22,059 nucleotides of DNA from Candidatus Yonathbacteria bacterium CG17_big_fil_post_rev_8_21_14_2_50_43_9. Lineage in GTDB: Bacteria; Patescibacteriota; Minisyncoccia; Phycocordibacterales; UBA1550. The position numbers were made by a program, and so were the translations under genes. Location of the stretch: assembly GCA_002771015.1 (NCBI GenBank), contig PCUO01000023.1:211-22269 (forward strand). The letters are read 5' to 3'. The notes beneath the pieces are model-generated. The model worked only from the letters and a program-made list of their open reading frames with translations. It searched no databases and was not told the origin of the DNA. Positions 3,446 through 21,205 of this stretch are shown one piece after another (within the stretch, counting starts at the first letter, position 1; the number at the start of each line of letters is the position of its first letter).

Positions 3446-3532
3446 TTGGTTCTCCTTGAAGAGTTCATCTATCCGAACACTAGCACACTGCCGTTAAAAG
3501 CAAAAGAGCGACAGGTTTGTTTGAGTAGCTCT

Positions 3533-3664
3533 TTAGGTTTTTAATATTGAAACATATCCCTGTCGTTTGGTGTGATTACTCTGTGTGGCAGAACACCACC
3601 AACCGAAGAAAAGTACTATTAGTAGCACAACAAACAGCGCAAAAGCGAGATCCTCTTCATCCAC
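3533..3664 (-). CDS. 43-residue single-helix membrane protein, unknown function
   Basis: A short gene between fmt and the 114-residue membrane protein. It starts at GTG (3664-3662) and ends at TAA (3535-3533). The N-terminus is acidic (DEEDL), followed by one hydrophobic helix at about residues 6-24 (AFALFVVLLIVLFFGWWCS) and a basic, polar tail, a topology fitting a small anchored protein. A GGGGAG site at 3671-3676 lies exactly 6 nt from the GTG, as with the neighbouring small gene. A nearby ATG at 3660 is in another frame and gives only 13 codons. I do not recognise a family. Confidence 0.6.
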   Translation of the reverse strand: MDEEDLAFALFVVLLIVLFFGWWCSATQSNHTKRQGYVSILKT

Positions 3665-3732
3665 GATAATCTCCCCAGTGGATGACAGCTAATAATACGT
3701 TATAACAAAGATGTAGAAGCAGAAATACGGGG

Positions 3733-4614
3733 CTACCTCTGTCCCCTCATAAAATCCTCGTAGGACATTTCTTTTTTGCCTTCTGGGATGACACGGTCAA
3801 GAATGAGTTTGCCGTCCGCTAGGTGGGCTTCCGTGACTACGACACGCATGTCTTTACCATTACGCGGAGTAATAAAATATGCGCGAGGCCATGAATCAAA
3901 TGCGCGGATTTTTCTAAACATACGAGCTGAATCGTCGTCCAAATAAATCTGTCCGCTACCGCTAGTCATTTTTTTTGTAAATGTTGCGCGGTCGTGTTCT
4001 TGCTCCTCAGGCGTTGTTTCCCCAGACACCCAAAGCGGAATAGTTTCAACCAATAGTTTGCCTCCAAGAATTCCAAGCATCTCTTCAAGTTCAGCTCCTT
4101 TTGGTGGCCAGTTTGGTACTGTAATTTTTTGTTGCGCCACAATAGGCCCGTGGTCCACCTCATCGTCAATAAGCATTATTGTCACACCCGCGTCGTGTGG
4201 TTCGCCGACAGGAACCTCCTCCAATATTGCCGACTGGATTGGGGATGCTCCGCGAAGTTTTGGCAACAGAGATGGATGCACGTTTAACGTCCCGTGTTTT
4301 GGGAGGTCAAGAATGTTGCGAGGCACTATTTTCCCGTATGAAGCAATGACGAACAGCTCAAAGTCGAAAGTTGAAAGTCGAAAGCAAAATTCAGAATCCA
4401 ATTTCTCTGGTTCAAGAGTTGTAACATTGTGAGCGTCCGCCCAGACTTTTACTTCACTTGGCGACATTTCAAGTCCGCGACCTTTTTGTCGTGGTGGTGC
4501 TGTCACTATAAGAGAGGGTAGCATTCCTTCGCGCGCCATCCCCTCTAGAACTATCACAGAAATGCGAGATGTCCCCCAAAACGCAATTTTAATTTCAGAT
4601 TTATTTTTTTGCAT
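3733..4614 (-). CDS. fmt: Methionyl-tRNA formyltransferase
   Basis: Formylates the initiator Met-tRNA in the cytoplasm using 10-formyl-tetrahydrofolate. At 293 residues it is slightly shorter than the usual 310 or so. The catalytic triad is visible as Asn111 and His113 in NVHPSLLPKLRGASPIQSAI and Asp154 in DEVDHGPI. The C-terminal tRNA-binding domain (about 205-293) is present but compact. It starts 8 nt behind def, so the two are translationally coupled partners: Def removes the formyl group that Fmt adds. Residues 76-87 (FCFRLSTFDFEL) are encoded by a degenerate 7-nt repeat array at 4355-4389. No Shine-Dalgarno site is seen. Confidence 0.94.
   Translation of the reverse strand: MQKNKSEIKIAFWGTSRISVIVLEGMAREGMLPSLIVTAPPRQKGRGLEMSPSEVKVWADAHNVTTLEPEKLDSEFCFRLSTFDFELFVIASYGKIVPRNILDLPKHGTLNVHPSLLPKLRGASPIQSAILEEVPVGEPHDAGVTIMLIDDEVDHGPIVAQQKITVPNWPPKGAELEEMLGILGGKLLVETIPLWVSGETTPEEQEHDRATFTKKMTSGSGQIYLDDDSARMFRKIRAFDSWPRAYFITPRNGKDMRVVVTEAHLADGKLILDRVIPEGKKEMSYEDFMRGQR
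4355..4389. repeat. Degenerate 7-nt repeat array inside fmt
   Basis: Five heptamers in register on the plus strand, with the consensus AGTCGAA (variants AGTTGAA, AGCTCAA). The period of 7 does not match the codon period, yet the fmt frame stays open. It is the only such array in the window lying wholly within a coding region. Confidence 0.75.
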
Positions 4615-4622
4615 TATTCTGT

Positions 4623-5234
4623 TTACAATTGATCCCTACTACGTCTTATTTCTTGCTCTTCTGCGGTAATCCTTTCCATGTTACGCGCGGTGTCTATAAA
4701 TAGCACGCCGTTTAAGTGGTCGGTCTCGTGTTGAAATATTTGAGCTAATAGTCCGCTTCCACCCCACGTGAATACTTTTCCATTTTGATCATACGCGCGC
4801 ACGGTTGCTTTGTCCGCGCGGGAAACTTCGCCGTAGAGCCAGCGTACAGAGAGACACCCTTCCGGAACCCAAACCTTTTTGCGTGAAAGTTTTGTAATTA
4901 CAGGGTTGATGAAAACCATATCAGAGGAGCACATAGGTTTTTTATGCAGTGGCGGTTTTGAGAGACTCATATATTCTGAATGAATATTTTTTAATTCGTT
5001 CTCGTGTTCATCTTCCTCATCTTCATATTCAAAAGCGCGGTGCGACACGACAAAGATGCGAAGCGGTACGCCGATTTGCGGAGCCGCAATAGCAACCCCG
5101 TCCCCCTCCTTTTCTAGAGCAGTCACCATATCCTCCAAAATTTTTTTAAGACGAGGTGAATCGAAATCTTTTGGATTTATTGGCTCGGCAACCTCGCGAA
5201 GTACAGGGTCTTCCTTTTGGACAATTTTGACCAT
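4623..5234 (-). CDS. def: Peptide deformylase
   Basis: Removes the N-formyl group from nascent proteins and is a metal enzyme of the cytoplasm. All three family motifs are present: GVAIAAPQIG (motif I), EGCLS with the metal-binding Cys (motif II), and QHETDHLNG (motif III, HExxH). The length of 203 residues exceeds the usual 170 or so because of an acidic insertion (EDEEDEHENELKN) followed by a loop before motif II. It lies between priA (33 nt upstream) and fmt (8 nt downstream), a widely conserved order. No Shine-Dalgarno site precedes the ATG, and a promoter lies immediately upstream. Confidence 0.95.
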   Translation of the reverse strand: MVKIVQKEDPVLREVAEPINPKDFDSPRLKKILEDMVTALEKEGDGVAIAAPQIGVPLRIFVVSHRAFEYEDEEDEHENELKNIHSEYMSLSKPPLHKKPMCSSDMVFINPVITKLSRKKVWVPEGCLSVRWLYGEVSRADKATVRAYDQNGKVFTWGGSGLLAQIFQHETDHLNGVLFIDTARNMERITAEEQEIRRSRDQL

Positions 5235-5243
5235 AACGTTACG

Positions 5244-5272
5244 AGTATATCGTATTTAAGCCATTTTTTAAA
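5244..5272 (-). promoter_or_regulatory. Possible promoter of def-fmt
   Basis: On the minus strand a -10 TATACT (5249-5244) stands 17 nt from a -35-like TTTAAA (5272-5267), which overlaps the priA stop codon. The start codon of def is 9 nt after the -10, so the leader would be no more than about 3 nt. Confidence 0.5.
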
Positions 5273-7232
5273 GCAGGTGGTCTGGGTTTACTTCTATAGT
5301 GAATTGCATTGGAAGCGCGCGAAGTTTGCCAAGCAGTTCATTGTTTGGCCAGTTCCCCTCCGCAAGTTTCAAAATCATATGCATGCGGAAAATATTTTTT
5401 GGTTCTTTTGCGATACTCCATGGCACTATTGGCGCGTAGCTTTCTAAAAAAGTTTTGAGACGCTCCATTTCTTGTTGAACCTCTGCTCTTTTGCCACGCA
5501 AAGTGATTTTTATAATCGTGCCGTACGGCGGGTAGAAAAAAGCCTTTCTAATCGCCAGTTCGTTTTCTGTAAATTTCAAAAGGTCGCCAGCGCGCGCTTG
5601 CTCAAAAATTGTCGTGTCGTCCGCGCGCGTTTGTATAAGGAGCGTGCCTGTTGTTTTTTCACGAAGTGTTAGCACTAGCGCGAATATGCGTTCTGACATT
5701 CGTATATCGGGAATAGCGAAAAGCGAATCAATGGAAATAATTGCCGTGTTGTATGTAGATTTTAAAAGAGGAAGAGCCATCGGAGTCGCTATAAGCACAC
5801 CGGAATCTGACTTCTCAAATTTTTCAATAATCTTTTTTGCCTGAGCGCGAGTTTTCGCGCGATCGCCGTCCAAAATAAATCGCTCTGTTTTTGGAAAAAG
5901 TTTCGCAACTTCATCATCAATACGATCAATGCCAATGCCAACTCCTTGTAGTTTCCACCCTTTGCAATTTGGGCAAGTTTCATTCACGTTGTTTTCTGGC
6001 ACTCTCATAAATCCGCATCCGTGGCATACAAATATTTGCGAAGAACCATTCGCGGATTCCTTGCGGTGCACTACTAGAGGAGTTTCGCATTGCGGGCATC
6101 TTACTAATGTTCCACAGTCGCTACATGTTGTTACGGGAGCGAGTCCTTTTCTAGCGGACATAAGAAGTATGCGTTCCCTGCGCTCGCGCGCCCACTCTAA
6201 AAGCTCATAGAGCTCTTTAGAAACGAGCACCATCTCACGACGGCCTGTATTTTCACGGATAAACTTTTCCTCCTTGCGTGGATCCACCAAAATAATTTCT
6301 GTTTGCTCGCGCGCATGATGTGATATTTGTCCAAACTCGCCAATAGTGCTGTTTGCTATTCGTTCATGTGTTTCCGCCCGAAGTATTGGCGCGCCGATTA
6401 TCAGCCTGCTTCCGCTCGCGCGAGCGTATTCTTCCACAAATATGCGCAGGTCAACGAGAGGACGTGAAATCGCTTTCCACGCATGCGATTGTTCCTCGTC
6501 CAGAACAATTGTTTTGAAACTGCGAGGAAGCGCCAGGTACTGCGCAGTGCCAACCACAAGAACCGCATGCTCCTCTTTTGCAATATTTTTCCATGTTTCA
6601 ATAATTTTCTTTTTTGCAATACTGCTGTGAAGAGAAAATGTGTAGTCCAAAATGCCGTGTCCTAGCTCTGCAGATATTCGTGAGACATCTTCTTCTGTTG
6701 GCACGCATACAAAAACAGATTCGTGTCGCGCAAAGGATTCGCGAACAAGTCTTTGATAATCTTCGTAGCGAGTTTTTGTATTGCACTGAAACGCGAGCAT
6801 CTTAAATTTTCCCATTGTATCTTTTTTGGCATTGGCTTTCCCGCCTAGGTTTTTCTCTGAAAAATCTTGGCGTGGTTCCTTGAGTGTGCCATCTAGGTGC
6901 GCGTCCAGTATCGCCTTTGGAGTGAGCGCGAGCAGTACCTCGCCAAGTTTTTGTGCCGATAAGTCCGCGGTTTTCTCCACAGCTTTTAGAAATGTTGGCA
7001 ACCAAATCCTCTGCGGTTTTGCGCGAGTGATTTTTCGTATCGCGTAATCCGACGACCTGATGGACGACCTCTCTTCGGAGACTTCGCGACATTCAAGCAC
7101 AATAGCTGGCACTTCACGCGTGCGTAGTGGCGCCACTACAACCATTCCTACTTCAATATGTTCTTTTGAAAAATATGTAAGAGCGTTTTGGAGCGCTCCG
7201 CGCGCGATAGGGGCAACGGTTATAATCTGCAT
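5268..7232 (-). CDS. priA: PriA-like primosomal protein without intact helicase motifs
   Basis: Related to PriA, the replication restart factor. The start chosen is ATG at 7232 (MQIITVAPIARG), giving 654 residues; the frame stays open upstream only through an inverted repeat. The eight zinc-binding cysteines are all present as four CxxC pairs (about 370-422). In contrast, the Walker A site expected near residue 150 reads CNTKTR, the DEAH-type box reads DEEQ (245-248), and the region of motif VI (normally a GRAGR-type sequence) reads VLTLREKTTG. It probably binds DNA and primosome or SSB partners without unwinding. It heads the priA-def-fmt block. A TATAAT at 7240-7245 (minus strand) is 7 nt from the start, without a good -35. 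Confidence 0.88.
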   Translation of the reverse strand: MQIITVAPIARGALQNALTYFSKEHIEVGMVVVAPLRTREVPAIVLECREVSEERSSIRSSDYAIRKITRAKPQRIWLPTFLKAVEKTADLSAQKLGEVLLALTPKAILDAHLDGTLKEPRQDFSEKNLGGKANAKKDTMGKFKMLAFQCNTKTRYEDYQRLVRESFARHESVFVCVPTEEDVSRISAELGHGILDYTFSLHSSIAKKKIIETWKNIAKEEHAVLVVGTAQYLALPRSFKTIVLDEEQSHAWKAISRPLVDLRIFVEEYARASGSRLIIGAPILRAETHERIANSTIGEFGQISHHAREQTEIILVDPRKEEKFIRENTGRREMVLVSKELYELLEWARERRERILLMSARKGLAPVTTCSDCGTLVRCPQCETPLVVHRKESANGSSQIFVCHGCGFMRVPENNVNETCPNCKGWKLQGVGIGIDRIDDEVAKLFPKTERFILDGDRAKTRAQAKKIIEKFEKSDSGVLIATPMALPLLKSTYNTAIISIDSLFAIPDIRMSERIFALVLTLREKTTGTLLIQTRADDTTIFEQARAGDLLKFTENELAIRKAFFYPPYGTIIKITLRGKRAEVQQEMERLKTFLESYAPIVPWSIAKEPKNIFRMHMILKLAEGNWPNNELLGKLRALPMQFTIEVNPDHLL

Positions 7233-7254
7233 GCTCCACATTATAGCATCCACT

Positions 7255-7289
7255 ACGCAATTTTCTCCCTTTTTACAATAAACAGCTAT
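7255..7289. repeat. Left arm of a 35-bp perfect inverted repeat
   Basis: Perfect reverse complement of 7367-7401, with a 77-nt spacer, between the divergent genes priA and murA. Read outward on each side the same sequence keeps both upstream frames open (giving the residues IAVYCKKGENCV), which makes false N-terminal extensions for both genes. Confidence 0.95.
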
Positions 7290-7366: not shown

Positions 7367-7401
7367 ATAGCTGTTTATTGTAAAAAGGGAGAAAATTGCG
7401 T
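7367..7401. repeat. Right arm of a 35-bp perfect inverted repeat
   Basis: Perfect reverse complement of 7255-7289. It lies 76 nt before the murA start. The two arms place identical sequence upstream of both divergent genes. Confidence 0.95.
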
Positions 7402-7428
7402 GTTGAATTATGGCACAGGAAGAATCAT

Positions 7429-8794: not shown

Positions 8795-9808
8795 ATGGGA
8801 CTATTTGTAACAAAAATCGGCATTGACCTAGGCACAGCGAACACGCTGGTTTTTATCCCTGGAAAAGGCGTGGTTCTAAATGAGCCGTCTGTTGTTGCTG
8901 TGAACCAGCAAGATAACAGGATAATGGCAGTAGGGCTTGAAGCGAAGCAAATGATTGGTCGCACTCCAGACAATATAACCGCATATCGTCCAATGAAGGA
9001 CGGTGTGATTGCTGACTATCGCGTAACAGAAGCTATGATCCGCTACTATATGTCTAAGGCTTTGGGAAACTGGAACATTTTGAAACCTGACGTGATGGTT
9101 TCTGTTCCAGCGGGAGTTTCTTCTACGGAACGTCGCGCGGTTATTGAGGCGACCATTAGAGCTGGCGCAAAAAATGTGTATGTGGTGAAGGAGCCGATTC
9201 TCGCGGCAATCGGAGCAGGGATCCCTATCTACGAAGCGCGTGGACATATGGTTGTGGACATAGGAGGAGGCACAACAGATGTCGCTGTTATTTCTCTTGG
9301 TGGGATAGTGGCATCAACATCTGTAAAATGCGCAGGGAACAAAATTGATCACGCTATTGCTGATCATATTAAAAAAACATTCAATCTTGCAATCGGCGAT
9401 CGCACCGCAGAAGAGATCAAAGTTCGCATCGGCTCAGCTATTCCAATAGATGACGAGCTTTTACTTACCATAAAAGGTCGAGATTACATCACTGGTCTTC
9501 CACGCACAGCGCAGGTTACTACTAACGAAATAGTGAAAGCTATTGACAAGGAGCTTCGCGAAATCATTCGTGCTATTAAAGATGTATTGCAGGAAACACC
9601 CCCAGAGCTTTCTGCGGACATTATTGATCAAGGAATCATTATGACAGGCGGTTCATCACAACTTCGCAACCTCGCGGAGCTTGTGGAGCGTCGAACTGGA
9701 GTAAAGGCTGTTCTTGCAGATGATGCAATATATTGTGTGGTAAAAGGGACAGGTATCGCGCTTGAACATTTGGATACGTATAAGAAAAGCATCTTAGCGA
9801 AAAAATAG
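8795..9808 (+). CDS. MreB/Mbl-family actin-like protein, first paralogue
   Basis: An actin-like cytoskeletal protein of 337 residues that would form membrane-bound filaments guiding wall synthesis. It has the phosphate loops IGIDLGTANTLVF (9-21) and VVDIGGGTTDVAVISLGG, and the adenosine loop TGGSSQLRNLAELVERRTG. Compared with the second paralogue at 14303 it is more divergent: KEPILAAIGAG replaces EEPMAAAIG, and the adenosine loop lacks the usual GGGALLRGL. It follows murA by 3 nt, outside the mreBCD cluster, and may be a specialised Mbl-like filament. Its last eight codons form the left arm of a perfect 32-bp stem that terminates the operon. Confidence 0.92.
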   Translation: MGLFVTKIGIDLGTANTLVFIPGKGVVLNEPSVVAVNQQDNRIMAVGLEAKQMIGRTPDNITAYRPMKDGVIADYRVTEAMIRYYMSKALGNWNILKPDVMVSVPAGVSSTERRAVIEATIRAGAKNVYVVKEPILAAIGAGIPIYEARGHMVVDIGGGTTDVAVISLGGIVASTSVKCAGNKIDHAIADHIKKTFNLAIGDRTAEEIKVRIGSAIPIDDELLLTIKGRDYITGLPRTAQVTTNEIVKAIDKELREIIRAIKDVLQETPPELSADIIDQGIIMTGGSSQLRNLAELVERRTGVKAVLADDAIYCVVKGTGIALEHLDTYKKSILAKK

Positions 9809-9849
9809 GCGCGCAACGCGCGCCTATTTTTTCGCTAAGATGCTTTTCT
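9783..9849. terminator. 32-bp perfect stem, terminator overlapping the mreB-like 3' end
   Basis: Two perfect 32-nt arms (9783-9814 and 9818-9849) enclose a 3-nt AAC loop. The core GGCGCGC is flanked by A6 and T6 runs suited to bidirectional termination. The left arm is the last eight codons, stop and tail of the mreB-like gene; the right arm is its exact reverse complement. Confidence 0.9.
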
Positions 9850-10625: not shown

Positions 10626-10861
10626 AGTATTTTTTTGTTAAGATGAGATGGTATATAAATATTAAATGGGTGTAATGACAAACAAGCAACCCCCAGTTGA
10701 ACCCCGCAATGCGGGAATATTGCTTCGCAATATTGTTTAACGGGGCGATGATTTTTATATCCAAGCAAGTGAGGGAAATAGAAACTACCAAGTTTTAATT
10801 TCCGAGCGAGCGCAGGATATATAGTAATCTATATAGTCGTTACACTCTTTAAAAATCAATC
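10626..10861 (+). promoter_or_regulatory. Structured leader of frr (leader family, divergent member)
   Basis: A 236-nt region without a supported gene. It contains a possible promoter (TTTTTG, 16 nt, TATAAA around 10629-10656), hairpins CCCGCAATGCGGG and AATATTGCTTCGCAATATT at about 10693-10734, and the motif TTTAACGGGG at 10737-10746. A 9-bp stem TGATTTTTA (10749-10757) pairs with TAAAAATCA (10850-10858), extendable to 11 bp with a bulged A, and closes right at the frr ATG (10862). The same 3' part occurs before mreD and PBP2. Its loop carries repeated element copy B. Confidence 0.6.
10760..10822 (+). repeat. Short repeated element, copy B
   Basis: Contains AAGTGAGGGAA near the start and TTCCGAGCGAGCG near the end, matching copy A at 7291-7352 in order and spacing. 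Like copy A it lies in the loop of an inverted repeat, here the stem that closes at the frr start. Confidence 0.5.
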
Positions 10862-11416
10862 ATGGCATACGATTTTTCCGAATTTAAAAAAAAAGCAGGA
10901 GACCTTGCAGAGCATCTCTCAAAGGAGCTTTCAGCAATACACACAGGTCGTGCTTCAAGCGCTATTCTAGACGGCATATTTATAGAGTCCTACGGTGCTC
11001 AACTCGCCGTGCAACATGTTGCAACTATTGCCAGTGAGGACGCGCGTACACTGCGTATTGTGCCGTGGGAAAAAGCAAACGGCAAGGAGATTGAAAAGGC
11101 AATCAATGATGCAAACCTAGGGATATCGGTTTCCACCGACGAGTCGGGTCTTCGCATCTTTTTTCCACCGCTTACCACAGAGCGTCGAGCTTCATTTACA
11201 AAGCTTTTGCGTGATAAGGTGGAGTCCGCACGGGTGACGCTTAAGGGTGTGCGCGAGCAGACAAAAAACGACATTGTATCAGCAGAGAAGGATGGCGATA
11301 TGAGCGAAGACGAAAAAACGCGCTCTCTTGAAGCTCTTCAAAAATTTGTGGACGAAGCAAACAACAATCTGGAATCAATCGGAGATAAAAAGGAGAAGGA
11401 AATTATGGGAGAGTAA
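10862..11416 (+). CDS. frr: Ribosome recycling factor
   Basis: Splits post-termination ribosomes together with EF-G. The 184-residue length is exactly typical. The helical domain begins FKKKAGDLAEHLSKELSAIHTGRASSAILDGI (the conserved TGRAS motif), and the C-terminal part carries LTTERRASFTKLLRDKVESARVTLKGVREQTKNDI, the usual RRNxR-like region of the family. The start codon directly abuts a hairpin and has no Shine-Dalgarno site. In many bacteria frr is followed by uppS, cdsA, dxr, rseP and proS; here rseP follows directly. Confidence 0.96.
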   Translation: MAYDFSEFKKKAGDLAEHLSKELSAIHTGRASSAILDGIFIESYGAQLAVQHVATIASEDARTLRIVPWEKANGKEIEKAINDANLGISVSTDESGLRIFFPPLTTERRASFTKLLRDKVESARVTLKGVREQTKNDIVSAEKDGDMSEDEKTRSLEALQKFVDEANNNLESIGDKKEKEIMGE

Positions 11417-14302: not shown

Positions 14303-15352
14303 ATGTTTGATAAATTTTACCAACTTTTTTCCAATGACATCGGTATTGACCTCGGTACCGCTAACACGCTTGTTTACTTGCGTGACCACGGCATCGTTAT
14401 CAACGAGCCGTCTGTTGTTGCGGTGAACCAAAAGACTGGGCAGGTGGTGGCGCTTGGTCAGCAAGCAAAACAAATGCTCGGTCGCACACCTGGACACGTG
14501 GTGGCTATTCGCCCTCTTGTGGATGGTGTTATTTCAAACTTTGAAGTCACTGAAGAAATGCTTTCGTATCTCATTGGCAAAGCAAACAAAATTAGCAAAA
14601 AAACTGTGCGTCCGCGCGTGGTTATTGGAGTGCCGTCTGGTATTACCACTGTGGAAGTGCGCGCCGTGTACGACGCGGCAAAAAACGCCGGCGCTCGCGA
14701 GGTGCATATAGTAGAGGAGCCGATGGCGGCGGCTATCGGTATCAAGCTCCCTGTAAAGGAGCCTATTGGCAATATGATCATAGACATTGGCGGAGGCACT
14801 ACCGACATAGCCGTAATCTCGCTCGGAGGCATTGTGCGTTCAAAAAATCTGCATATCGCGGGAGATCGCTTGAACAACGACATCATTGCTTATGTCCGTG
14901 ACGAGTTTCGCGTGCTTATTGGAGAGCGCACCGCGGAGAGTGTAAAGATTGCGATTGGTTCAGTAAAGAAAAACAAAGAGCCGATGGAGGCAGTGATCCG
15001 TGGTCGCGATTTGGTGACAGGTCTTCCGCGCGAGGTGGTGGTTACAGACAGCGATATTCGCGAGGCGATGAGCGTGTCCGTTGCGGGTCTCGTAGACGCT
15101 GTAAAAGAAGTTATTGAAACTACTCCGCCGGAGGTTCTCTCGGATGTGATGAGCCGAGGAATTATTTTGGTTGGTGGTGGAGCGCTCCTTAGAGGTCTTG
15201 ACGAGGTTCTGTCTCAGACACTCCATGTTCCTGTGTATATTGCAAATGATCCATTAACTGCTGTTGCCCGAGGCGCAGGTTGCATACTTGAGGAGATGGA
15301 AAATTTCAAAGAAGTTCTTATTGAGCACGAAAATGACACGCCACCCAAATAA
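14303..15352 (+). CDS. mreB: Rod shape-determining protein MreB
   Basis: The canonical actin-like filament protein of the elongation machinery, 349 residues. Phosphate loop 1 reads DIGIDLGTANTLVYL (12-26); VEEPMAAAIG carries the conserved catalytic Glu; IIDIGGGTTDIAVISLGG is phosphate loop 2; GIILVGGGALLRGLDEVL is the adenosine loop. It starts 11 nt behind proS and is followed, with an overlap, by mreC, in the classic mreBCD order. The paralogue at 8795 is the more divergent copy, so the symbol mreB is assigned here. No Shine-Dalgarno site precedes the ATG. Confidence 0.97.
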   Translation: MFDKFYQLFSNDIGIDLGTANTLVYLRDHGIVINEPSVVAVNQKTGQVVALGQQAKQMLGRTPGHVVAIRPLVDGVISNFEVTEEMLSYLIGKANKISKKTVRPRVVIGVPSGITTVEVRAVYDAAKNAGAREVHIVEEPMAAAIGIKLPVKEPIGNMIIDIGGGTTDIAVISLGGIVRSKNLHIAGDRLNNDIIAYVRDEFRVLIGERTAESVKIAIGSVKKNKEPMEAVIRGRDLVTGLPREVVVTDSDIREAMSVSVAGLVDAVKEVIETTPPEVLSDVMSRGIILVGGGALLRGLDEVLSQTLHVPVYIANDPLTAVARGAGCILEEMENFKEVLIEHENDTPPK

Positions 15353-16118
15353 CTATTTATTGCAAGAAAAAAAAATTGCGCTAATTGTTCTAGTTTCAAT
15401 AAGCGCGTTTGCAGTCTTGTATTCGCCGATTAGAGACACGCTTACTCGAGCGCTGTATTATGTAACTCCTGGAATATGGTACATTGGGGAAAAAACAAAA
15501 AGCTCGATTGGCTTTGTTTTGGCAAATTTTCGCGACAGTGGCACTCTCGTAGACGAAAATATAATACTTAATGAGGCAATTGAGCTTATGCACACGCAAG
15601 TTTTGGATAGAAATCTTCTTGCGGAAAAGGTTATAAGGCTTGAAGAGGCACTCGGGCGGTTGAGAATGGATGACCGTGTTGTTGCTAGCGTTTTGGCTGG
15701 GCCAGGAAGATCTCCATACGACACATTAGTTATTGACGCTGGAGAGAACGAAGGAATTAACGTGAATAATTATGTTACATATGCTGGCTCTGGAGTTATT
15801 GGGAAAATTATTGAAACAACAGGGAATTCTTCGAAGGTAAAACTTTTTTCATATCCTAACGAGGAACATGCTGTACTAGTCGGGGACAGTTACATCCCCG
15901 CCGTGGCAGTTGGCACAGGGATGGGCAATTTCGAAGCAAAAGTCCCACAAGAAAGTTCTGTGGAGATAGGTGATAATATAATTACAGCAAAGGGAGATTT
16001 TATTTTAGGAACTGTTTTCATAATAGAAGAGAAACTATCTGAGCCATTTAAGAGATTGTTGTTTCGCCTTCCGTTTAATATTTCTCAAATTCGTTCAGTA
16101 GAGGTAATTATTAATTAG
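15333..16118 (+). CDS. mreC: Rod shape-determining protein MreC
   Basis: A single-pass membrane scaffold that links MreB to PBP2 at the outer face. The ATG at 15333 gives 261 residues and overlaps mreB by 20 nt; the frame is open from 15264 but that part is a shadow of mreB. The transmembrane helix is at about 14-31 (KIALIVLVSISAFAVLYS). A helical, coiled-coil-like region follows (about 60-105, with LAEKVIRLEEALGRL), then the beta-rich domain with YDTLVIDAGENEGINVNNYVTYAGSGVIGKI, characteristic of MreC. The overlap implies translational coupling. Right after its stop begins a 32-nt block repeated after the mreD-like gene. Confidence 0.93.
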   Translation: MTRHPNNYLLQEKKIALIVLVSISAFAVLYSPIRDTLTRALYYVTPGIWYIGEKTKSSIGFVLANFRDSGTLVDENIILNEAIELMHTQVLDRNLLAEKVIRLEEALGRLRMDDRVVASVLAGPGRSPYDTLVIDAGENEGINVNNYVTYAGSGVIGKIIETTGNSSKVKLFSYPNEEHAVLVGDSYIPAVAVGTGMGNFEAKVPQESSVEIGDNIITAKGDFILGTVFIIEEKLSEPFKRLLFRLPFNISQIRSVEVIIN

Positions 16119-16236
16119 ACAATGAGCGTAGCGACATTAGACCATTAACCCTGTTAAAGATGATTTGTTGGCACCCACAAATCATCTTTAACAGGGTGGC
16201 GATTTTAATATTCGCTTCACTCATTTAAAATCAGAC
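16118..16236 (+). promoter_or_regulatory. Structured leader of the mreD-like gene
   Basis: No gene is supported here. From 5' to 3' there are: a block at 16118-16149 that matches 16490-16521 at 29 of 32 positions; a 21-bp perfect stem (16148-16168 with 16177-16197); the motif TTTAACAGGG at 16188-16197, contributing to its 3' arm; and an 8-bp stem GATTTTAA/TTAAAATC (16201-16208 with 16225-16232) ending 4 nt before the ATG at 16237. The apical part ATTTGTTGGCACCCACAAAT has the same length and pattern as in the PBP2 leader. Confidence 0.7.
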
Positions 16237-16485
16237 ATGAATAAACGAATTATTTTTGACATCATACTTCTCTCGTCCGTTTTTTATGCGCCGTGGTGGA
16301 TTGTTGCAATGTTTGCGATTGTAGGCGCGTATCTTTACAATCAGTATTATGAAATTTTTCTTTTTGGAATGCTTATAGACCTTCTGTATGGCGCAAATTT
16401 ATTTCCGCTTTGGGGCGCGCTGGGTATTTTAGGAGCAATAGTTATATTTGTATCAGTATCATACGCAAAAAAAATGGTAAGATAA
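16237..16485 (+). CDS. Short MreD-like membrane protein
   Basis: An 82-residue, very hydrophobic protein in the position of mreD between mreC and PBP2. About three transmembrane helices are visible (roughly 6-34 as one or two, 38-52, 56-75). MreD is usually about 160 residues with five or six helices, so this is about half of it. The segment YEIFLFGMLIDLLYGANLFPLWG resembles the GxxxGLxxDLLxGxxLG-type core of MreD, which is why I favour a shortened MreD over an unrelated protein. No frameshift remnant is visible downstream, where a structured leader starts at once. Sequence similarity is weak, so the name rests mainly on context. Confidence 0.6.
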   Translation: MNKRIIFDIILLSSVFYAPWWIVAMFAIVGAYLYNQYYEIFLFGMLIDLLYGANLFPLWGALGILGAIVIFVSVSYAKKMVR

Positions 16486-16489
16486 ATAT

Positions 16490-16700
16490 GATAATGAGCG
16501 TAGCGTCATTAGATCATTAACAAAGCTAAATGATTTCAAATTAGAATAACAACTAATCTCTTATGAGAAATAAAATTATCAATAATTATAAATTTGCATC
16601 TCTCTTAACAGAGAATTTGAAATCAAGATTTGTGGGCATTCACAAATCTTATTTAACATGGGGATGATTTTTATAGTCATTTCATTCCTTAAAAATCATC
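16490..16700 (+). promoter_or_regulatory. Structured leader of the PBP2 gene
   Basis: A 211-nt leader without a supported gene. It begins with a copy of the 32-nt block found after mreC (16490-16521). A 12-bp stem (16531-16542 with 16614-16625) encloses small hairpins such as TCTCTTATGAGA and CTCTCTTAACAGAG. Next comes AGATTTGTG/CACAAATCT (16626-16634 with 16641-16649, loop GGCATT), then TTTAACATGGGG, and finally an 11-bp perfect stem GATGATTTTTA/TAAAAATCATC (16663-16673 with 16690-16700) whose last base is directly before the ATG. No Shine-Dalgarno site is present. Confidence 0.75.
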
Positions 16701-18452
16701 ATGTCAAGAAGAATATCAGCAAAATTTTTTAAACAGGTCTCACGAAACATCGATCCAGATGAGATTTTTCTTGATTCAAAAAATTTGCCAGGGTTTGACA
16801 AGTACCAGTTTGAGGGACGAATTGAAAAACCAATAAGTCGCACAGCTATCCTGGGAGTAATGCTCGCATTTTTAGTTGTTGTAGTTGTTTTTCTTGGCAA
16901 GGTTGTAAGCTTGCAGATCGCTCAAGGAGAAGAGTTTCTAAAAAAGAGTGAAAATAATCGTTTAGATCATGTGCCATTGTTTGCTATGCGTGGAACTATC
17001 TACGATATAAACAATGTTCCTCTTGCGTGGAATTCTTTTGATAATGAGGCGTCGCGAACGACTTTAATTGCTACAGAAACAAGCACGACAACAAAGGTAA
17101 TGTCATTTCCTCATCGCGCATACATTGCTTTGCCAGGTTTTGGTCACGCATTAGGGTATGTAAGCTATCCAAAAAGTGACAAACAAGGATTTTTTTATCA
17201 AAAGTCATTTATCGGTATGGATGGTATTGAAGAACACTACAACGAGTTTCTTTCTGGGGAAAACGGTCTACAAATAGTAGAAATAGACGCGCTCGGAAAA
17301 ACAAGAGATGGGAGCATTGTTGAAAATCCAATAAATGGCACAGCGCTCACTCTTGGCATAGACGCGCGCGTGCAGGAAAAACTTCACACAACAATTCGCG
17401 ACACAGCAAACGATTTTGGCTACATGGCTGGAGCCGGAGCTATTATGGATGTTCATACAGGCGAGCTTCTCGCTATAACGAGCTATCCCGAGTACGAAAG
17501 CGCGGTGCTTTCTGAAGGAAAAAATAAAAAACTTATTCAAAGTTACAACCTTGATAAGAGGTCTGTTTTTCTAGATCGCGCTGTGTCGGGAGTATACACT
17601 CCTGGTTCCATAATAAAACCTTTTATGGCAGTTGCAGCGCTCGCAGAGGGTGTCATTACTCCAGAAAAGCAAATATTAAGCACTGGTTCCATTTCAATTC
17701 AGAACCCATATTATCCTGATATATGGTCCGTGTTCAACGACTGGAAGGCGCACGGCTGGGTGGATATGAGACGTGCTATCGCGGTTTCCTCTGATGTGTA
17801 TTTTTATGAAATAGGCGGAGGGTTTGAAGGTCAAAAAGGTATCGGCATTGCGAACATAGAAAAATACGCGCGGTTGTTTGGTTTTGGGGCGCTTACTGGG
17901 ATAGATATCACAGACGAAAAAATCGGGACCATTCCAAGTCCAGCATGGAAGGAAAAAATGTTTGCTGGTGAGGCATGGCGTTTGGGAAACACATATCATA
18001 CTGTCATTGGGCAGTACGGTTTTCAAACGACAATACTCCAGGCGCTTCGCGGTACTGCAAGTATCGCAAACGGAGGCACGCTCGTCACACCGCATCTTTT
18101 GAAGGATCCAGTCCAGGAATTTTCATCATCAAAAATTCCTCTTTCTTCGGAGCATCTCCAGATTGCTCGTGAGGGAATGCGTCTAGCTGTGACAGAGGGT
18201 ACTGTCTCCGGTCTCGGTGTGTGGTACGTGGATATTGCTGGAAAGACCGGTACTGCGGAAATAGACGCGGGTAAAAAATACATCAACTCGTGGGTGGTGG
18301 GATTTTTCCCATATGACAAACCCAAATATGCGTTTACTGTAGTAATGGAGCGTGGTCCGCACTCAAACACAATTGGAGGCGTGTACGTAATGCGTCAGCT
18401 TCTTGACTGGATGAACGAAAACACGCCGGAGTATTTTGGGGGCAGAATGTAG
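16701..18452 (+). CDS. mrdA: Penicillin-binding protein 2 (elongation D,D-transpeptidase)
   Basis: A class B penicillin-binding protein that cross-links peptidoglycan during elongation, anchored by one helix. The length is 583 residues, close to the usual 600 or so. The N-terminal helix is at about 48-71. The dimerisation or pedestal domain contains RGTIYDINNVPLA (97-109). The transpeptidase motifs are SIIK (303-306, nucleophile Ser303), SSD (363-365) and KTG (515-517). It lies behind mreB-mreC-mreD, so it is the elongation enzyme rather than the division enzyme FtsI. A rodA partner is not in the window. The start codon touches the leader hairpin. A 7-nt repeat array spans its stop. Confidence 0.95.
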   Translation: MSRRISAKFFKQVSRNIDPDEIFLDSKNLPGFDKYQFEGRIEKPISRTAILGVMLAFLVVVVVFLGKVVSLQIAQGEEFLKKSENNRLDHVPLFAMRGTIYDINNVPLAWNSFDNEASRTTLIATETSTTTKVMSFPHRAYIALPGFGHALGYVSYPKSDKQGFFYQKSFIGMDGIEEHYNEFLSGENGLQIVEIDALGKTRDGSIVENPINGTALTLGIDARVQEKLHTTIRDTANDFGYMAGAGAIMDVHTGELLAITSYPEYESAVLSEGKNKKLIQSYNLDKRSVFLDRAVSGVYTPGSIIKPFMAVAALAEGVITPEKQILSTGSISIQNPYYPDIWSVFNDWKAHGWVDMRRAIAVSSDVYFYEIGGGFEGQKGIGIANIEKYARLFGFGALTGIDITDEKIGTIPSPAWKEKMFAGEAWRLGNTYHTVIGQYGFQTTILQALRGTASIANGGTLVTPHLLKDPVQEFSSSKIPLSSEHLQIAREGMRLAVTEGTVSGLGVWYVDIAGKTGTAEIDAGKKYINSWVVGFFPYDKPKYAFTVVMERGPHSNTIGGVYVMRQLLDWMNENTPEYFGGRM

Positions 18453-18464: not shown

Positions 18465-18522
18465 GGATTTCTCACTGCATAATAAGCTCACGGTCGTGAG
18501 CTTATTATGCAGTGAGAAATCC
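18465..18522. terminator. 27-bp perfect stem, terminator
   Basis: Perfect arms at 18465-18491 and 18496-18522 with the loop GGTC. It separates mrdA from the greA promoter. There is no strong T-run after the stem, so termination strength is uncertain despite the very stable fold. Confidence 0.7.
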
Positions 18523-21075: not shown

Positions 21076-21108
21076 AAAACCCCATTTTGCATAGCAAAAT
21101 GGGGTTTT
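21076..21108 (+). terminator. Rho-independent terminator of orf94
   Basis: A perfect 15-bp stem (21076-21090 with 21094-21108, loop ATA) with CCCCATTTTGC arms, ending in five Ts. It is typical of an intrinsic terminator. Confidence 0.9.
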
Positions 21109-21116
21109 TCTTGCCA

Positions 21117-21174
21117 TAAAACACAATCGTAACAATAGAACGCTATCGCGTTCTATTGTTACGATTGTGTTTTA
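21117..21174. terminator. 27-bp perfect stem before the mraZ region
   Basis: Perfect arms at 21117-21143 and 21148-21174 with the loop TATC. Its apical 11 bp (CAATAGAACGC and complement) are identical to those of the palindrome at 1898-1951; the basal stem is different. It lies eight bases after another terminator and insulates the dcw cluster. Confidence 0.8.
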
Positions 21175-21205
21175 CTGCTTTAAAATCCCAATTTTTGCAA
21201 AAAAG

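Follow-up and report, generated by a model that had tools for sequence, protein, structure and literature searches.

The leaders before the mreD-like and mrdA genes in the 22,059-nt stretch of Ca. Yonathbacteria DNA that we analyzed (the window) are copies of a dispersed non-coding hairpin cassette. We put at about one half the probability that this cassette has been copied around a single Patescibacteria order (Ca. Yonathbacteria, Ca. Nomurabacteria and relatives), is kept before start codons and acts there as a translation-initiation cassette. There are many copies per genome, placed between a stop and a start codon with the 3' end fixed at the start codon; empty sites exist, the arms of hairpins A and C pair in a copy-specific manner, and the same genes carry the element repeatedly. 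In addition, we infer ribosome binding, masking of the binding site by hairpin B, and a benefit to the downstream gene. The Ca. Nomurabacteria and Ca. Yonathbacteria records with the element are, we assume, Parcubacteria, a group with tiny genomes that is hard to culture and whose gene regulation is little known.

Hairpin leaders before mreD, mrdA and frr

A sequence-only reading of this DNA had proposed a repeated structured leader before the mreD-like and penicillin-binding protein genes, and the proposal is borne out. The 32-nt opening blocks at 16118 and 16490 are indeed identical at 29 of 32 positions, a core pattern derived from both leaders occurs twice in the window versus 0.00 times expected, and both leaders fold better than their shuffles, the mreD leader strongly (-49.3 versus -18.1 kcal/mol for shuffles; z -11.0; 0/200 shuffles as good) and the mrdA leader moderately (z -3.5; 0/200). 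The opening block was said to stand right after the stop codons; in one leader it does overlap the mreC stop by a single base, the last one, but in the other it lies 4 nt beyond the mreD stop. Similarly, an apical hairpin of the same pattern and length is present at 16163-16182 and 16628-16647, but forms the tip of a long hairpin B in the mreD copy and, in the mrdA copy, where B is branched, its side arm B2. The TTTAAC-GGG motif is found at 16187 and 16652, as described, and also at 10736 in the frr leader, which had been grouped with the other two and proves to be a third family copy with an insertion inside hairpin C.

All features of these copies lie on the forward strand of the window. Hairpin A of the mreD copy (16118..16141) consists of a conserved GACAATGAGCGTAGCGACATTAGA around the loop motif GAGCGTAGCGA (16124-16134), and its first base is the last base of the mreC stop codon. 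Hairpin B (16148..16197; ACCCTGTTAAAGATGATTTGTTGG / CCCACAAATCATCTTTAACAGGGT) was delineated by the repeat search and the fold (z -11), and the Shine-Dalgarno-like stretch GGGTGGC (16194..16200) lies at its base, just 5' of hairpin C (16201..16232). The latter has the terminal stem claimed for it, GATTTTAA/TTAAAATC, carries TCGCTTCACTC in its loop (16212-16222) and ends 4 nt before the ATG at 16237 of a putative mreD-like ORF of 82 aa (16237..16485; the name is that of the sequence-only reading). In the mrdA copy, hairpin A (16488..16517; ATGAT/ATCAT around AATGAGCGTAGCGTCATTAG) begins 2 nt past the mreD stop. It is followed by the branched B (16525..16657), which has an imperfect base, GCTAAAT/ATTTAAC, and two arms, B1 (16531-16542 with 16614-16625) and B2 (16626-16633 with 16642-16649), the likes of which recur in other copies. 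A Shine-Dalgarno-like GGGGAT (16660..16665) then leads into hairpin C (16663..16700), whose stem is again as claimed (GATGATTTTTA/TAAAAATCATC), whose loop contains TCATTTCATTC (16677-16687), and which abuts the ATG at 16701 of the putative mrdA gene (16701..18452; penicillin-binding protein 2, PBP2, likewise named in the earlier reading). The frr copy (10669..10861) has a weak A (GGTGTAATGAC, 10669-10679), a B at ~10690-10745 and TTTAACGGGG at 10736. The arms of its hairpin C (10747-10757 and 10848-10859) enclose the loop motif TCGTTACACTC (10837-10847) and the insertion of ~75 nt, and the frr ATG follows at 10862.

The window holds further repeats. Two perfect palindromes, of 32 bp at the end of the first mreB-like gene (9783-9849) and of 28 bp after mrdA (18465-18522), occupy terminator-like positions with no obvious T-run. 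Another palindrome family is represented at 1898-1952 and 21096-21195, with a common CAATAGAACGCTA..GCGTTCTATTG and 80% likeness over 55 nt, and a 42-nt inverted repeat (7248-7289 / 7367-7408, 93% complementary) lies at the 5' ends of a divergent pair of reading frames. The two mreB-like genes (8795-9808 and 14303-15352) share a 92-nt DNA stretch of 77% identity.

A dispersed family before many unrelated genes

At least 21 start-codon copies of the element exist in the window's own genome (638,213 bases, 41 contigs). The mreD leader used as query found 13 matches there, overlapping and mirror ones included, and a covariance model built from 11 three-prime halves (R1) found 20 at E<1e-4, one of which is a mirror A half. 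Nineteen three-prime halves, together with weaker frr and polA copies, each end directly before the ATG of a reading frame. Judged by their protein sequences, these target genes are presumably rpsS, rplV, rplN, rpsJ, rplM, ndk, murG, mreD, mrdA, gap, rnc and others. The rpsD copy of this genome is without hairpin B, and by eye a degenerate copy precedes nusA. Among the relatives, G002 has the most copies, with 28 R1 matches (mirrors included) and 19 fetched copies at starts. Family-wide, the targets named in the same manner, which we take to be correct, include ribosomal protein genes, nusA, nusG, fusA, typA, ndk, gap, rnc, murG and pilB/pilC. The tie to cell-shape genes suggested by the first two leaders is thus not upheld, because the family sits before so many unrelated genes.

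Read in the mRNA sense, a copy comprises hairpin A on the 5' side, in most cases a long hairpin B with an ACCC..GGGT base, hairpin C on the 3' side and the ATG. Hairpin A has a variable stem and a loop that carries GAGCGAAGCGA. The base of B reads ACCCnGTTAAAT / ATTTAACnGGGT; B often branches into two arms, and in some copies another sequence, unrelated yet still paired, takes its place (GAGCACC..GGTGCTC in the rpsJ copy, and the GCTGGG and GCGGGG types in others). GGGTGAT stands between B and C, and C joins an AT-rich variable stem to a loop with TCGCTTCGCTC, 0-7 nt from the ATG. A and the 5' arm of B mirror the 3' arm of B and C, and mirror matches on the opposite strand form an inverted pair with a spacer. 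Paired mirror halves, seen in four genomes, lie ~85-315 nt apart, with no long pair among the listed matches and many matches without a detected mirror half.

Of the 57 copies in which a B5 arm was recognized, 27 have the stop codon of a long preceding frame 28-46 nt 5' of B, which places it at or within A's outer arm. With A thus placed at stop codons and C at start codons, and with B a long duplex in many copies, the family could be an intercistronic RNA-processing or mRNA-stability element in which RNase III cuts B and the ends are capped by A and C; in four genomes of the genus the element precedes rnc itself. This explanation seems to us a poor prospect, since some copies are without a long B, the own rpsD copy among them, and since RNase III does not need the conserved loop motif or GGGTGAT. 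A role of B as terminator or attenuator was rejected as no T-run follows it (by eye). The promoter-like TGNTANAAT occurs in 13/27 long copies versus 0.8 in mononucleotide shuffles, and some long copies may thus contain a promoter, but the signal is only suggestive because the copies carrying it are related.

The leaders had been thought undescribed. In the window, Rfam gave 0 matches at gathering score and only sub-threshold matches at 16080-16720, and we found no description of a start-codon hairpin element in the open literature searched.

Some copies and leaders show additional hairpins. In two copies (L036 on G000 contig 30 and L045 on contig 26), the hairpin C loop harbors another, nested hairpin repeat that reads AATTAGCAAATTCACG or similarly. 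By eye, the rpsS leader hairpin at L104, L114 and L115 (G005, G008 and G011) contains a large extra hairpin (type GCTGGG or GCTGGA), which gives the impression that hairpin loops receive insertions of B-like palindromes. In the nusA leaders (L292-L321), a GTCCG..CGGGC-type hairpin is followed by a T-run in many of the 30 genomes read by eye, and this looks like a nusA attenuator.

Copy-specific base pairing

The paired arms of the two leaders had been reported to change together, and stems A and C do covary copy by copy across the family. Within genomes, C arms fit their own partners better than partners taken from other copies (z 8.2 in 57 copies, 0/2000 shuffles), with z 10.8 for all 122 C halves. 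The outer and inner arms of A show the same copy-specific fit (z 6.3, 0/2000 shuffles) in the 57/122 copies with an adequately recognized B5' arm, to which the A tests are limited. In the held-out set described below, the C stem reached z 4.7, with 1/2000 shuffles as good. A covariation test likewise came out in favor of pairing: the score of alignment A2 was 0.293 versus 0.155, with 0/500 shuffles as good and slid alignments at or below 0.108, and both sides had changed in 9/10 pairs. One of the five pair-count measures, that of further pair types, was weak (23/500 shuffles as high). The variety of the stems is illustrated by GATTTTTA/TAAAAATC, CAAATTTTA/TAAAATTTG and CATAATTTT/AAAATTATG, the last of which includes the rnc start codon, and by the site after tuf, where one genome reads GTAAGTAA/TTACTTAC and a second one GTAAGGAA/TTCCTTAC.

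Stems can also come to covary without selection, if template switching during quasi-palindrome repair by DNA polymerase perfects local palindromes. The long perfect palindromes of the window (32 bp at 9783-9849, 28 bp at 18465-18522) and arms that match the flanks on both sides would fit such a process. It leaves the start-codon placement, the shared loop motifs and the presence in many families unexplained, however, and we consider it very improbable.

Within the C loop, a 2-bp mini-stem is complementary in 69/106 copies versus 25.3 +- 3.9 expected, a count from which 16/122 C loops that did not fit the register were dropped. Mismatches in the mini-stem are, by 21 versus 1, those that the DNA strand opposite to the mRNA would tolerate, while the outer C stem has no strand bias (6 versus 5). 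The inner pair is C.A on the mRNA strand, which equals a G.T wobble on the opposite one, in 16 copies that come from 9 genomes, and T.G in none; in the held-out set the ratio is 4 to 0. As proof of a DNA structure this asymmetry is weakened by two CpGs in the loop, whose decay gives the same bias; CpG mutability could thus be its source, and the A half is too noisy to decide. Kissing between loops A and C was considered as well, as the two loops have complementary sequences and several of the predicted folds are dominated by A:A' pairing. It was dropped because the pairing is not copy-specific (z 0.7, 243/1000 shuffles as good; z 0.6, 511/2000).

Anchoring at start codons

The element is held closely to the starts of genes. 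In 116/122 R1 matches, a frame that spans 40 codons or more (or runs open to the stretch end) starts no more than 3 nt from the end of the model, the last 3 columns of which are ATG. These copies comprise 22 from the own genome and 100 from relatives; the latter are what remained of 111 matches, taken from shortened or thresholded match lists, after a mirror match had been merged and the final 10 set aside, and the 111 themselves exclude mirror halves and at least seven weaker non-mirror matches (G003, G013, G019, G026, G031, G036 and G049). Three of the six copies without a 40-codon frame begin shorter ATG frames, two are A halves, and one is without ATG.

R1 contains the ATG; for this reason, 44 copies from relatives were cut off ahead of the ATG and used to build an ATG-free model, R2. 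Nine genomes outside the training set provided 40 held-out matches, the best-scoring among those listed, with weaker ones left out; an ATG lies at -1 to +4 nt in 40/40 of them and begins a frame of at least 40 codons in 38/40. Anchoring is looser farther afield. Of 22 class-level matches with a fetched locus, 17 are full-span, weaker and more distant, and 13 of these have an ATG within 4 nt; the other four are one mirror half, two shortened copies, of which one is followed by an ATG after 16 nt, and a match that has no ATG. Among the five hairpin-only matches, one has an ATG. An exact pattern, also ATG-free, stands at a start codon in 7/7 contigs titled Ca. Nomurabacteria, Ca. Yonathbacteria or Patescibacteria, a set that overlaps the others in at least three loci (L077 and L083 belong to the held-out genome G604, and L080 is apparently the murG training copy of G003).

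In other Patescibacteria, lone hairpins with the same C-type loop and stem occur that do not precede an ATG (L258, L259, L260 and L263), one of them beside a tRNA-like sequence.

Gain at empty sites and patchy spread

Comparison with relatives of the same genus documents gain of the element at rplV, rplN and rplX by way of empty sites. The rpsS-rplV spacer measures 210 and 219 nt in the two genomes with the element versus 2-48 nt in the other 14 of the 16 genus genomes. Between rpsQ and rplN, readable in 15 of these genomes, the element is present in the same two, and the last rpsQ codons differ from those of relatives where the A half lies. Between rplN and rplX, also readable in 15, only G002 carries it, and the native rplX spacer is conserved among several element-free relatives. 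In three genomes the element sits between the conserved rpsS leader hairpin and the ATG, and by eye it is found in the nusA leader of several genomes; relatives have empty sites at both of these genes. Elsewhere in the S10 operon, rplB and rpsS are separated at locus L100 by ~3.2 kb (3529-6704) in which two large additional ORFs lie, and the rplB-rpsS gap differs in length in each of seven genomes measured.

Among relatives, 26/61 genomes have R1 matches at E<=0.01, the own one included; within the genus, R1 match counts range from 0 (in six genomes) to 28. The covariance-model search of Patescibacteria proposed alongside the sequence-only reading yielded many further matches upstream of genes: at E<=1e-4, R2 had matches in 55/197 genomes of the order, in 16/285 sampled from the class and in 5/286 sampled from the phylum, two of which lie outside the class and are weak. 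These large runs used stricter filters, which lose weak matches, and some of their single matches are hairpin-only. Target genes recur across families, with 43 homologous cross-family pairs versus 6.7 expected on 700 equal genes (an expectation that would rise with fewer eligible genes), and nusA carries the element in six families.

According to the sequence-only reading, the leaders are a cis-regulatory RNA. Taken in full, this would mean an RNA, passed on vertically, that responds to a protein or ligand and governs a regulon of growth genes. The leader position, the covariation, the growth-related targets and the want of an Rfam gathering match all agree with it, and its structured, covarying leader stands. 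Simple vertical inheritance does not, because the family is dispersed and has been gained at empty sites. Close relatives have such sites, with a conserved native spacer at rplX; a single genus spans 0 to 28 matches, the targets are many and unrelated, and no conserved unpaired pocket was seen apart from the loop motif and GGGTGAT. We therefore think this explanation improbable.

The opposite extreme is a selfish palindromic mobile element of REPIN or MITE type with no host role, which survives in short intercistronic spacers before ATGs and whose stems match the flanks through its mode of insertion. Its inverted-repeat build, the B interior common to copies, the empty sites and the patchy spread would all be expected, and by eye the outer arms at nusA and rpsJ resemble the native flank. 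The C-loop mini-stem and its C.A bias also speak for it, as does the purine strand of the mini-stem, which reads like GCGAAGC, a known and very stable DNA minihairpin according to the available text of PMC4686876. However, an element that inserts neutrally should turn up in other non-coding DNA too, in conflict with the 40/40 held-out copies at start codons, and the copies recur at the same genes across families. No target-site duplication was detected (z -1.1), and the strand asymmetry is explicable by CpG mutability. A purely selfish element is, on balance, unlikely.

Several candidates for the means of spread were discarded. An apparent 9-nt target-site duplication at rplV is an isolated case. 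Y1 transposases occur in 14/16 genus genomes, but a RAYT as mobilizer was rejected as no link joined Y1 loci to the element: in the 8 Y1 loci checked there was one partial element match (E 0.002) and none other below E 0.8, and G003 has 13 element matches and no Y1 match. Carriage by phage was likewise set aside, the exact pattern having no match among viral contigs.

A candidate hairpin-spaced ribosome site

In the 143/162 copies with a C-N-GGG anchor, the GGGTGAT window forms a duplex of -7.5 kcal/mol on average with the anti-Shine-Dalgarno sequence, versus +0.48 at 151 other starts and 0.2 when shuffled. These energies rest on what we presume to be the 16S 3' end, a form complementary to GGGTGAT that may not be the host's; the usual anti-Shine-Dalgarno form was not found in 372 fetched loci. 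The 151 comparison starts are from S10 stretches, minus those with TTTAAC within 80 nt, and a small number of starts of element copies with a different B stem may persist among them. The signal is in part inherent in the test, because the copies were chosen by C-N-GGG and stem B has GGG as its base. The second base after GGG lies outside stem B, though, and is G in 120/143 copies (C in 13/143). From GGGTG to the ATG, the linear distance has a median of 38 nt, and once C is folded a median of 4 unpaired nt remains (142 copies).

Given the complementarity of GGGTGAT and the folded distance of ~4 nt, we favor a ribosome site that is spaced by a hairpin and has a base that B can mask. GGGTGAT beside hairpin C would pair with the 16S 3' end, and hairpin C would fold away the intervening sequence, so that only ~4 unpaired nt would precede the AUG. 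The base of hairpin B (ACCC:GGGT) could mask the site. The element may have spread as a palindromic, non-autonomous mobile element through an activity that uses the hairpin ends, a step that is wholly conjectural. Certain observations go against the initiation cassette: the anchoring is not absolute (13/17 of the class-level full-span matches), hairpin B would also hide the Shine-Dalgarno-like site, hairpin A is not needed by the proposed mechanism, and the own rpsD copy is without B. Nor is the genome short of Shine-Dalgarno-like sites, since 4/9 element-free ORF starts in the window have ordinary ones at or below -4 kcal/mol (two further starts were left out).

A more specific version, which we regard as possible but short of even odds, is a mobile initiation cassette: a hairpin-ended element that inserts between stop and start, brings a masked Shine-Dalgarno site and a folding spacer, and thereby rewires the initiation of essential genes. 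As part of this tentative version, many operon genes of these bacteria, judged from the sampled S10 starts, would be without Shine-Dalgarno sites. If it is true, a repeat gained repeatedly at the starts of ribosomal, nusA, fusA and cell-wall genes links mobile DNA directly to growth control, and offers a concrete case of initiation at genes without a classical Shine-Dalgarno site adjoining the start codon.

Comparison with known systems

The element resembles REPINs in build and spread, and hairpin-spaced Shine-Dalgarno sites in geometry. REPINs, in the available text of two reports, are paired inverted REP sequences associated with RAYT transposases, non-coding, palindromic, multi-copy and intergenic, and are predicted to fold in ssDNA or mRNA (PMC3116915; PMC3733652). 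The element described here shares with the REPIN/RAYT system the short non-coding palindromic units, the inverted pairs around a spacer, which were found here too, the many copies and the intergenic location. It differs in that the loop (GAGCGAAGCGA) is conserved rather than the stem, which varies between copies; in that no linked RAYT (Y1) was found in 8 Y1 loci; and in a placement that is not random extragenic (40/40 held-out copies at starts; 13/17 at class level).

With ribosomal-protein leader RNAs it has in common a structured leader before ribosomal protein genes, but it is also found ahead of numerous unrelated genes, and at the compared sites most relatives do not have it. Yeast mitochondria harbor translational bypassing elements, mobile hairpins within reading frames that are skipped in translation. 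The present element would resemble them as a mobile hairpin element tolerated because translation copes, with the difference that it lies between stop and start. In gene 25 of phage T4, a hairpin loops out the spacer and brings the Shine-Dalgarno site to the start codon. The geometry is alike here, with a Shine-Dalgarno-like sequence ~38 nt from the AUG, a hairpin between and ~4 unpaired nt, whereas the present element is dispersed and has been gained repeatedly at many genes, and its Shine-Dalgarno-like site is also part of the base of a second hairpin. If mobility and a role in initiation were both proved, this combination would constitute a new kind of element.
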